Below are positions 1-3,479 of a stretch of DNA of 31,431 bases, piece by piece. Origin of the DNA: a virus; the IMG/VR virus record IMGVR_UViG_3300021962_010117, positions 1 to 31,431 of that record. One strand, given 5' to 3'. The position numbers and the translations under genes are program-made. The notes under the pieces were generated by a model. It did no database searches, had not been told where the DNA came from, and saw only the letters and a list, made by a program, of their open reading frames with translations. Each line of letters begins with the position of its first letter. The stretch's first letter is position 1.

Positions 1-61
1 CAGCTCCACCAGAAAACAAAATATTGATGTGGGTACAATCTTCAGGGATGTCAATTTTCAT
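1..61 (-). CDS. PP-loop ATPase-like protein, N-terminal fragment (cut by window edge)
   Basis: Only the first 20 codons lie in the window. They begin at an ATG at 61 and run off the edge. The fragment reads MKIDIPEDCTHINILFSGGA, and the final ILFSGGA matches the start of the SGGxDS ATP-binding loop of N-type ATP pyrophosphatases (asparagine synthase B, QueC and TilS relatives). The gene starts 11 bases after the last tmRNA stem. A second gene with the same kind of loop is at 23874-24431, so the phage may carry two such enzymes. The substrate cannot be deduced from this fragment. The start and loop are seen directly; the family is inferred from one motif. Confidence 0.6.
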   Translation of the reverse strand, partial: MKIDIPEDCTHINILFSGGA

Positions 62-71
62 AGAAAAATTT

Positions 72-338
72 GGTGGGGTTTTCTGTTCCCAGGAGAACCC
101 CAAACCCGGCATGCCACCTAATTAGGCAGCTAATGCAAGAGGCGTATTATATGTGCCTGTTAATGTTTTTGCTCTGCTTACGGCAGTCGCCTATCGGGTA
201 GCTCTCTCATCTAGTCCTTAACCTGTCGAAACCAGTCATCCCCGAAATGTGTGTTACTGAATGGAGATGGAGGGAATCGAACCCTCGTCCAAGCTATGTT
301 TCAAATTGAGCTGTTCTACTACCATCCTACAGAATTAT
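72..338 (-). ncRNA. ssrA: tmRNA, circularly permuted two-piece form
   Basis: tmRNA rescues stalled ribosomes and adds a degradation tag. Read on the minus strand, the acceptor piece comes first. It has T-stem GAGGG (286-282), loop TTCGATT, CCCTC (274-270), acceptor strand CATCTCC (269-263) and discriminator A at 262; CCA is not encoded. After an 18-nt intervening segment (261-244) comes the coding-piece 5' end, GGGGATGACTGGTTTCGACA, from 243. GGGGATG pairs with CATCTCC over 7 bp with one G-U. The tag frame starts at GCA (172-170) and reads AKTLTGTYNTPLALAA, then TAA (124-122); the LALAA end is the classic tag ending. CTACC (201-197) can pair with GGTAG (323-319). Nested stems follow the stop (118-115 with 75-72, and 107-102 with 81-76). 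Acceptor before coding piece is the permuted order. Outer ends are approximate. Confidence 0.93.
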
Positions 339-341
339 TTA

Positions 342-2951
342 TCAGAAGTTAACTCGAATCCCCATTTGCATCTGCCAACGAGACATTAAATCATCTGTTT
401 GATAAGTGGTATTTAATGGGTCGAAACTAAATGTTGGAACGCTGTTCACACCACGGCCTGAACGATATTGGAGTGGGTAGACATTTTGATTGTTGAGGTT
501 AGGAACGAAATAATACTTGCCCCAATCCTTGTTCAACAGATTACCGAAGTTGGTGATGTCAAATGTGATATCTACATTCTTGACTGATTGGATGATACGA
601 ACATCTGCTCGGTGATTCCACGGAGTTCTTGCACCGTTTCTCTTGGTGTATTCACCACGGTGTGAGGACAGATATGGGTCATTACTGATGAATCTATCTA
701 AATCTTCCCAGATTTGTTGTGCTGTTCTGGTATCTACTTGACCCGTAGGACGAGCAGATGGAACCAACTTGATTTCATCAATGTTGCGTGGAACATAAAT
801 CAAATCATTATGACTTGACCCGTCACCATTTAAATCACCAGAATACACATAGGAAAATGGTGAACCTGATGAACCTGTATAGACTGCTGATACGGTGGTG
901 TTCTTCCAGTTCCAACTTGCGTTTGCTACGAACCGATGACGAATATCAAAGTTGGACCACGTAAGGTCATATTGGTTTGCCTTCACCAATTGATTGTATT
1001 CCACGTGTGATTGGAACGAGTTACGTTGACCATTTGCTAAATCCTTTGCTTCCCCATAACTGTATGCTGCCATTACATCAAGGTGGTCCCACTTCTTACT
1101 CAAGTTTGCCGTGACATTATATCTGTAACCCTTATCAGTATTATTGAGTGCGAATACTGATGTGTATGGATTAGTTGTAGTGGTTGTTAATCTGGTTGAT
1201 GTGTAGACAGGTCTACGGTCACCACCTGCAAGGTTTCCTGCGGGTGCTGGTAATCCAATGTTGGTGAATACGATATCATTCAATGTCTTGGTGAATGTCC
1301 AATCTAATACGAGTAATGCATCAAATGGTAACTTGATGTCTGTTGCCAAGTTCATTCTACGCATCTGTGGTTGGACATAGTTGTTGCCAATCACATTCAT
1401 TTCATATGTCGTGGTGCTACTTAATGAACTTTGACGAAGTGGGTCCACAATCAACGGAACCACATTGGTTGGACGAGCATCAATGTTTCCTACCACCAGT
1501 CCGTTGTGGATGAATGGATAAGCATACCATGCGAACGGCATTCTTCCTTGGAAGTATCCCACTCCACCACGATAGGTCACTCTATCCTTTTGCCAGTTAA
1601 ATCCAAAACGTGGACCAATCAACAAACTACGACCATAATCGTTGGTGATGGTGCTGTATGGTTTGGTTCCGTTGGTGAGAGTGATGTTCGTAAACGCATC
1701 TGCTTGAACTGGTGTGTCCATCATATTCCAATCTGCACGAACACCTGCGGTCACCTTGAAGTTATCGGTGACTGCCACTTCATCTTGAACATACACACTT
1801 GGCACGGTGATGTTGAAGTTGGCACCTGGATTGTTCAACACATAATCTAAACTATTGTCCGTCAAATCAAATGTAGCTCTGATACGATTCGGACGATTTG
1901 CGAAGAATGATGCAAGGTTTGCATATTGCCAACGACCTGCGTATCCATTCACGAAAGTATATTGAATATTGTAGAACTCATTATGGGTTCCTGCGGTAAG
2001 AGTATGCTTCCCCACAGACCACGTGAGATTGTTGGTCACTTCATAGGTGCGAACCTTTGTGCCATACACCACACCTTCACGGTCACTTCCTGCATTGATT
2101 TGACCGAATTGAATGTCTTGGATTTCAATTTGTGGGGCGAACACATTTCCGTATGGGTTTCTGTGGTCACGAACAAGTGAATATCCCAACAACAAACTGT
2201 TGGATACTCCTGCACCAAGTTGTGACTTCAATTCAGCAACCGTATTGGTGGCTCTACTGAAATGGTCGAAGTCTTGGGTTGCCAACTTGGTGAGTGCTTG
2301 TCCACGTTCCAAGTTTCCTGCTACTGCATTGACAAGATTACTACGAACCGTTAAGATGGAGTTTCCAATATTCCAATCCAATCGACCGAAATACTTTTCA
2401 CTATTTGCGTTGACATCATATGCCCCAAATGTTCCCGCATCAAAGTTTGGAACACCCGACCGTGCTGCAAATGATACAAGGCTATCACGGACTTGTTGTA
2501 CCACCGCTTCGGTTGCCAACACGCCTGGATTACCAGGGGCAAATAGGATAGGGTCTGTTCTACGTGCAATTTCAAAGTTCACAAAATAGAACAACTTGTC
2601 CTTGATGATTGGTCCACCGACACGACCCCCTGCTTGATATTCATTGAAGGTGGTTGGCATTTTACCAGAGATACCATCACCGATGAATTGTGGAACACGA
2701 CCGAATGAGTAGATGGAACCTTCGGTGGTGTTGGTACCTGAACGAGTAACTGCATTCACACTACCACCTGTGAAATTACCAATCTTCACATCATATGGTG
2801 CGATGACCACAGACACTTGTTCAATGGCGTCAAGTGAGATGGGTTGTGAACGTGAAAGAGAACCAGGCGTACCTGTTGGAACGGATGCTGTGGATTGACC
2901 TGATGATTGACTGAAACCGAACGCATCATTCGATGCTGCTCCATCAATCGT
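342..2951 (-). CDS. Oar-like TonB-dependent outer-membrane receptor, plug and beta-barrel part (downstream of in-frame TAG)
   Basis: This is the main body of an Oar-type TonB-dependent receptor, in the same frame as the 175-aa piece at 2952-3479 and separated from it only by a TAG codon. Just after the stop the frame reads TIDGA and NDAFG, then SVVIAPYDVKIGNFTGG and AVTRSGTN, which are plug-domain motifs of Oar-like proteins. A long alternating-strand barrel region follows. The chain ends in MGIRVNF with a terminal Phe, the usual beta-barrel assembly signal. The whole reading is 1045 codons counting the TAG, a normal size for the family. No ATG opens this half near the TAG, so it would need readthrough or a non-ATG start. 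These proteins sit in the outer membrane. A phage copy could alter uptake or block other phages (inference). Confidence 0.85.
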   Translation of the reverse strand, partial: TIDGAASNDAFGFSQSSGQSTASVPTGTPGSLSRSQPISLDAIEQVSVVIAPYDVKIGNFTGGSVNAVTRSGTNTTEGSIYSFGRVPQFIGDGISGKMPTTFNEYQAGGRVGGPIIKDKLFYFVNFEIARRTDPILFAPGNPGVLATEAVVQQVRDSLVSFAARSGVPNFDAGTFGAYDVNANSEKYFGRLDWNIGNSILTVRSNLVNAVAGNLERGQALTKLATQDFDHFSRATNTVAELKSQLGAGVSNSLLLGYSLVRDHRNPYGNVFAPQIEIQDIQFGQINAGSDREGVVYGTKVRTYEVTNNLTWSVGKHTLTAGTHNEFYNIQYTFVNGYAGRWQYANLASFFANRPNRIRATFDLTDNSLDYVLNNPGANFNITVPSVYVQDEVAVTDNFKVTAGVRADWNMMDTPVQADAFTNITLTNGTKPYSTITNDYGRSLLIGPRFGFNWQKDRVTYRGGVGYFQGRMPFAWYAYPFIHNGLVVGNIDARPTNVVPLIVDPLRQSSLSSTTTYEMNVIGNNYVQPQMRRMNLATDIKLPFDALLVLDWTFTKTLNDIVFTNIGLPAPAGNLAGGDRRPVYTSTRLTTTTTNPYTSVFALNNTDKGYRYNVTANLSKKWDHLDVMAAYSYGEAKDLANGQRNSFQSHVEYNQLVKANQYDLTWSNFDIRHRFVANASWNWKNTTVSAVYTGSSGSPFSYVYSGDLNGDGSSHNDLIYVPRNIDEIKLVPSARPTGQVDTRTAQQIWEDLDRFISNDPYLSSHRGEYTKRNGARTPWNHRADVRIIQSVKNVDITFDITNFGNLLNKDWGKYYFVPNLNNQNVYPLQYRSGRGVNSVPTFSFDPLNTTYQTDDLMSRWQMQMGIRVNF

Positions 2952-2954
2952 CTA
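2952..2954 (-). other. In-frame TAG codon interrupting the Oar-like receptor
   Basis: The codons around it read AAC AAC TAG ACG ATT GAT. Codon counting (135 bases from 2951 to 2816) shows that both halves share one frame, so this is a nonsense codon and not a frameshift. Several genes here use TAG as a real stop (ligase, nuclease, the gene ending at 28110), which argues against general TAG recoding. Confidence 0.9.
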
Positions 2955-3479
2955 GTTGTTATACCGATAGTTGGAACCCGCAAAAGAAACCCCGTTGCCT
3001 TGTGGGGTCATACGGGTCATATCTTGGAGACTACGAGACAAGGTGGGAAGCACTTGCAACTTCTCTTGATTGAGTTGTGCTACGGCACCATCTTTACGTG
3101 CTTGTGCTGCTACGTCTGCAATAACCGAAACTTGATTTAATACCACGACAATCTTTTCCATCTCAATATCTGTGCTTGTTGCTTCACCTAAACGAACTGT
3201 GAGATTATCCGAGGACTTGGGACGGAACCCCAATGCGGTCACCGATACGGTATATGGACCACCTGGTTTCAAGTTGGATAATGTAAACCGACCTTCAGTT
3301 GTAGTTTTCGTAACAATTCGTTGATTGGTGGGAACAAAGACCACAGTAACATTGGCATTTTCAATTGTACTACCAGTAACATCTTTAACAGTACCACGGA
3401 TTATACCACTTGTGATTTGAGCATGGGTTGTTCCTGACAACAACATGGTTGCTAACACAACTCCAAACATTTTGTTCAT
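2952..3479 (-). CDS. Oar-like TonB-dependent receptor, N-terminal part (ends at in-frame TAG)
   Basis: This is the N-terminal 175 residues of the same receptor. It has a signal peptide (short basic start, hydrophobic VVLATMLLSG core, probable cleavage after THA) and then a carboxypeptidase-regulatory-like beta-sandwich (GIIRGTVKDVTGSTIENANV, later GRFTLSNLKPGGPYTVSVTA) at about residues 25-110. The beginning of the TonB plug (LPTLSRSLQDMTRMTPQGNG) follows. It stops at TAG in the middle of the conserved RYNN-x-TIDGA plug motif, where homologues carry a hydrophobic or aromatic residue. If translation really stops here, the product is a secreted fragment without a barrel. A 6-bp inverted repeat lies just upstream at 3496-3519. 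The start at 3479 is the first ATG after the preceding gene; Shine-Dalgarno support is weak. Confidence 0.85.
   Translation of the reverse strand: MNKMFGVVLATMLLSGTTHAQITSGIIRGTVKDVTGSTIENANVTVVFVPTNQRIVTKTTTEGRFTLSNLKPGGPYTVSVTALGFRPKSSDNLTVRLGEATSTDIEMEKIVVVLNQVSVIADVAAQARKDGAVAQLNQEKLQVLPTLSRSLQDMTRMTPQGNGVSFAGSNYRYNN

Follow-up and report, generated by a model that had tools for sequence, protein, structure and literature searches.

The question raised by this locus is whether a phage genome carries a working tmRNA whose two pieces are encoded in permuted order and, if so, when and for what such an RNA would be used. We analyzed the whole stretch of DNA, a viral record of 31,431 bases hereafter called the window, for which a sequence-only reading had already proposed a two-piece permuted tmRNA, with the alpha, beta and cyano covariance models as a check. 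Results confirmed this proposal. At about 63-330 on the minus strand, the Rfam model tmRNA_permuted (RF04321, cut-off 47 bits) matched at 323-122 over its full length (model 1-213, 113.8 bits, E 9.6e-22), the beta_tmRNA model (RF01850, cut-off 84 bits) matched at 371-49 with 100.3 bits, and ARAGORN independently called a permuted tmRNA at 31-351 with the tag GTYNTPLALAA. Beta was the best of the three subtypes, followed by alpha (61.3 bits) and cyano (51.2 bits, under its cut-off), while some relatives score under the beta cut-off. The gene order is permuted and the best matches are the permuted families, not the one-piece standard tmRNA (RF00023). The strand given earlier had to be corrected, as the element sits on the minus strand. 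The parts of the locus are as follows:

1..61, minus strand: first part of a PP-loop/QueC-like gene (SGGADS) that runs off the window, with a complete copy in L014 (188 aa)
63..243, minus strand: coding (mRNA-like) piece, beginning with GGGGATG at 243-237, its 3' end being approximate (about 63-75)
75..109, minus strand: H-type pseudoknot, CCGGG/CCTGG and GGGGTT/AACCCC (covariation helices 6-7)
113..130, minus strand: stop-codon helix GCTGCCT-AATT-AGGTGGC (covariation helix 5)
122..157, minus strand: tag reading frame GGC...GCC TAA, encoding GTYNTPLALAA and a stop (ARAGORN, alignment, pN/pS)
170..196, minus strand: ultraconserved 27-nt block CGATAGGCGACTGCCGTAAGCAGAGCA at the boundary of the tRNA-like and tag halves, putative recombination joint
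244..261, minus strand: intervening segment TTCAGTAACACACATTTC, which would be excised; its length in relatives is 5-37 nt
262, minus strand: discriminator A73, with no CCA encoded after the acceptor piece
262..330, minus strand: acceptor piece, becoming the 3' tRNA-like part (Rfam, alignment, covariation)
269-263, minus strand: acceptor strand CATCTCC, pairing 7/7 with GGGGATG (243-237) across the permuted junction
286-270, minus strand: T arm, within the acceptor piece
323-319, minus strand: P2 strand GGTAG, within the acceptor piece
336..343, minus strand: motif GATAAATA, resembling a T4 late promoter, from which transcription is predicted to start near 330 (positional conservation)
342..3479, minus strand: TonB-type outer-membrane receptor frame (CarboxypepD_reg plus barrel), upstream neighbour outside the tmRNA

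Along the minus strand, the acceptor piece (about 330-262) is followed by an 18-nt intervening segment (261-244) and then by the coding piece (243 to about 63-75). The acceptor piece before the coding piece and the stem across their junction are as the sequence-only reading had described them, and the cut sites that it placed at 262 and 243 coincide with the predicted ends of the two pieces.

We then looked for relatives of the gene. Using the neighbouring PhoH protein as query, 38 related viral loci were collected, and of the 36 related records taken whole, 21 exceeded the RF04321 cut-off. A scan with the 22-base core GGCGACTGCCGTAAGCAGAGCA returned 51 viral stretches, some of which are more distant tmRNAs. 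The tmRNA copy of L033 is cut by the contig end. In L025 and L051, which come from two samples, the tmRNA lacks the tag end and the pseudoknot with the same joint, either by a real deletion or by misassembly; unless misassembled, this loss suggests that the tmRNA gene may be dispensable.

Folds were compared among 21 distinct sequences, the window and 20 relatives. As MFE folding of the whole gene was uninformative (z -0.76, not unusual), covariation was used instead. All 21 sequences form the acceptor stem with 7 of 7 pairs, in three versions (CATCTCC/GGGGATG, CACCTCC/GGGGGTG and CGCCTCC/GGGGGCG). The alanine identity elements are invariant among them, both G3-U70 (a U-G pair, columns 80/86) and A73 after the acceptor strand, and an encoded CCA is absent from all 21. 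Over the 41 pairs counted, 95% of cells were paired, and shifting the partner by one column lowered pairing to 50-63%. Moreover, 14 pairs changed on both sides, compared to 7.0 (SD 1.5) in shuffles, a number reached in 0 of 500. The H-type pseudoknot is among the counted helices, with compatible variation in L039 and L046. The fold covaries across the permuted junction.

The resume codon is expected at GGC (157-155), where both ARAGORN and an alignment to the UAAAU-GCA position of the consensus place it. The tag read earlier, AKTLTGTYNTPLALAA, starts five codons too early, considering these two lines of evidence and an in-frame stop that the relative L176 carries among the codons just 5' of the resume codon; its LALAA ending was right, and the frame GTYNTPLALAA closes with a hydrophobic end and a stop. 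The value of pN/pS was 0.39 in the tag frame but 0.81 and 2.39 in the remaining two, a comparison based on only eight variants. Relatives fall into two tag classes, G[TA]YN[TA]PLALAA and DNxYMSxAxSYALAA, and the ALAA end is kept in every tag class of the window's tmRNA family.

Distances of the tRNA-like (front) half and of the tag (back) half disagree among relatives. Between L018 and L027 the distance is 0.06 in front and 0.41 in back, and between L036 and L044 it is 0.11 and 0.43, while the opposite holds for L027 and L016 (0.23 front, 0.01 back) and for L044 and L035 (0.29 front, 0.03 back). In all of these pairs, the halves are joined by a block that differs by 0-7%. As each of the two front types occurs with both tag classes, which is hard to obtain on one recombination-free tree, we infer that tag halves were exchanged among relatives by recombination at the conserved 27-nt block.

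Upstream of the tmRNA, NATAAATA, an exact T4 late consensus, was found in all close relatives with enough sequence, at a nearly fixed spacing of 50-56 nt before the T stem that holds although the upstream genes differ. The predicted start, about six bases 3' of the motif, is the 5' end of the precursor, and this nearly fixed distance implies that transcription should start there. In G014, a related record of 178 kb, TATAAATA is about ninefold enriched (30 found, 3.4 expected) and precedes the genes for head scaffold, major head, tail sheath and baseplate; the same record encodes a late sigma factor of the gp55 type (E 3.5e-58) and a sliding clamp gp45. The promoter claim is based on positional conservation and on G014, as ATAAATA shows no excess in the window as a whole (6 versus 7.1 expected). 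A scan for sigma-70 promoters and simple terminators gave nothing on the correct strand. Judging from these motifs, expression of the tmRNA family appears to coincide with that of the late (virion) genes. The promoter motif, like the fold, the identity elements and the tag, can be read directly from the sequence.

The sequence-only reading had also stressed the neighbouring genes. The PP-loop gene indeed adjoins the tmRNA, just downstream. The adjacency of the receptor is incidental, since related T4-like contigs keep the tmRNA next to different upstream genes. This gene is an exonuclease in most relatives and a TonB-type receptor in the window, L010 and L014; other upstream genes, named by inspection only, are phosphoesterase-like in L016 and GCSFT-type in L026. 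Because the neighbour varies, a functional link between receptor and tmRNA was rejected. Most receptor-bearing contigs had no detected tmRNA. The receptor frame of the window is broken by one in-frame stop, and some of the related viral contigs L002-L013 carry intact copies that are 75-97% identical. In L044 (9499-12183, Plug domain) and in L043 (3520-6231), another TonB-type receptor, different from this one, occupies the place directly upstream of the tmRNA. Elsewhere in the window, the block 6858-27507 combines genes for a carbamoyltransferase, two radical-SAM proteins, IMP dehydrogenase and adenylosuccinate synthetase with QueC-like ones; these genes might modify nucleotides or surfaces.

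The phage is T4-like, with PhoH, ATP-dependent ligase and exonuclease genes in the window and T4-type head, tail and late-sigma genes in G014. Its terminase shares about 50% identity with those of cyanophages. G014 also has a cluster of 29 tRNA genes, which like the tmRNA are mostly without encoded CCA, at about 7279-11770 of L161 (G014:100001-120000). DNA comparison found no close isolate. The receptor relatives found are from Bacteroidota (about 40% identity, in a pattern-limited search), so that a Bacteroidota host was considered. Shine-Dalgarno-like sites speak against it: they reach 46% in this phage (14% in the control) and 48% in a Stenotrophomonas phage (10%), compared to 9% in a Cellulophaga phage (18%). 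A permuted tmRNA above cut-off was found in none of 148 Bacteroidota genomes.

How does this gene compare with known systems? The sequence-only reading had called the permuted form unusual in a phage, which was overstated, as 53 of 133 unique phage tmRNAs are two-piece, 50 of these 53 being aquatic (PMC9004378), and one Rfam model covers permuted tmRNAs (PMC11915505). The gene represents a new, well-conserved family of an already known class, the two-piece phage tmRNAs. It shares with RF04321 and RF01850 the gene order, tRNA-like fold, tag, resume context and pseudoknot region, but is phage-borne, does not encode CCA, has an 11-residue tag starting with Gly and lies behind a T4 late-promoter motif. 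Like the Melnitz/pelagimyophage tmRNA (PMC9004378), it is a two-piece tmRNA of an aquatic myophage with T4-like genes. The Melnitz type, however, resembles alpha tmRNAs, is associated with a glutamine riboswitch and has an early promoter (PMC9004378), whereas here the best match is beta, the late-promoter motif lies upstream and no riboswitch family reached its gathering threshold in the window, which ends soon after the tmRNA gene. The tmRNA of the Mendera-group Stenotrophomonas phages (Menderavirus), also T4-like and called permuted by ARAGORN, has distant blastn similarity to ours but encodes CCA, sits in a tRNA cluster, carries a ANDDSYTVRIAA-like tag and has an intervening segment of about 55 nt. 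Records of these cultured phages label the gene (L075:2941-3314) as tmRNA or tRNA-OTHER, or leave it unannotated.

Altogether, the window probably encodes a working permuted tmRNA, made late in infection and processed by the host, that would free stalled ribosomes. For its transcription timing, processing, charging, tagging and benefit, we reason from general tmRNA and T4 biology. Host RNA polymerase with the phage late sigma (gp55 type) would start at NATAAATA, giving an RNA whose 5' end would be that of the acceptor piece. Cleavage would be carried out by host RNase P on the 5' side of GGGG and by a 3' tRNA nuclease of the RNase Z/BN type behind A73; a host enzyme would add CCA, AlaRS would charge the two-piece RNA and host SmpB would deliver it to stalled ribosomes. 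Host enzymes would be needed, considering that CCA is not encoded and that SmpB was not found in nine large relatives. The ribosome would then append Ala-GTYNTPLALAA and terminate, and the tagged protein would go to Clp-type proteases. Late in infection, cut or decaying mRNAs would stall ribosomes at a time when translation is devoted to virion proteins, and the tmRNA would free them; ribosome release at this stage is the likeliest benefit. The retagging of stalled host or phage proteins, as suggested earlier, is plausible.

Other explanations of the locus have to be weighed against this one. The conserved TAAATA could be an RNA leader or an A/T-rich joint, the tmRNA being transcribed from an upstream promoter, and the lack of ATAAATA excess in the whole window would fit. 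We find this quite unlikely, considering the exact T4 late consensus at a nearly fixed spacing, its independence of the upstream gene, and the enrichment of TATAAATA before structural genes of G014. That the gene is a relic or a passenger, a tmRNA acquired from a bacterium but without function today, appears very improbable: some relatives indeed have no tmRNA or a truncated copy and shuffling among relatives is evident, but the compensatory stem changes, the complete acceptor stems in 21 of 21 sequences, the constrained tag frame, the conserved promoter motif and over 20 distinct intact versions argue against decay. The tmRNA might instead chiefly interfere with host trans-translation, either by competing for SmpB, AlaRS and stalled ribosomes or by diverting host proteins to proteolysis for amino acids. 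Selective degradation of host proteins was proposed for the early-expressed Melnitz tmRNA (PMC9004378), and phage DS6A has a tag-less tmRNA-like RNA that inhibits the endogenous tmRNA in E. coli, according to the passage citing it in PMC11915505. Here, however, an intact and constrained tag frame ends in ALAA, and the late-promoter motif argues against an early role in host degradation, which makes interference unlikely as the main function.

A further alternative concerns origin: the permuted gene could have been captured recently from the present host, whose own tmRNA it would simply mirror, that host being a betaproteobacterium or some other bacterium in which the tmRNA is permuted. In agreement with this idea, beta is the best of the older Rfam subtypes, by the scores given above. 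A close host sequence was not found, however, and CCA is not encoded here although the permuted consensus model has it. Moreover, the Mendera-group Stenotrophomonas phages have a permuted tmRNA, although their host group presumably has the standard form. Recent capture is thus possible, if somewhat doubtful.

Coming back to a working late tmRNA, we tentatively suggest, as one possibility, a modular late gene in which a constant, gp55-driven tRNA-like module would receive swappable proteolysis-tag cassettes at the 27-nt block, so that the peptide added to stalled proteins would differ from one related phage to the next, perhaps to suit the adaptors or proteases of the host. The late-promoter link and the tag-cassette exchange were not met in the literature searched and may still be described elsewhere. 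For the purpose of phage tmRNAs, the predicted late promoter offers a clue, as it would indicate when the RNA is needed. The exchanged tag halves would show which part of the tmRNA relatives have traded, and the cultured Menderavirus phages are a workable source of a permuted phage tmRNA.
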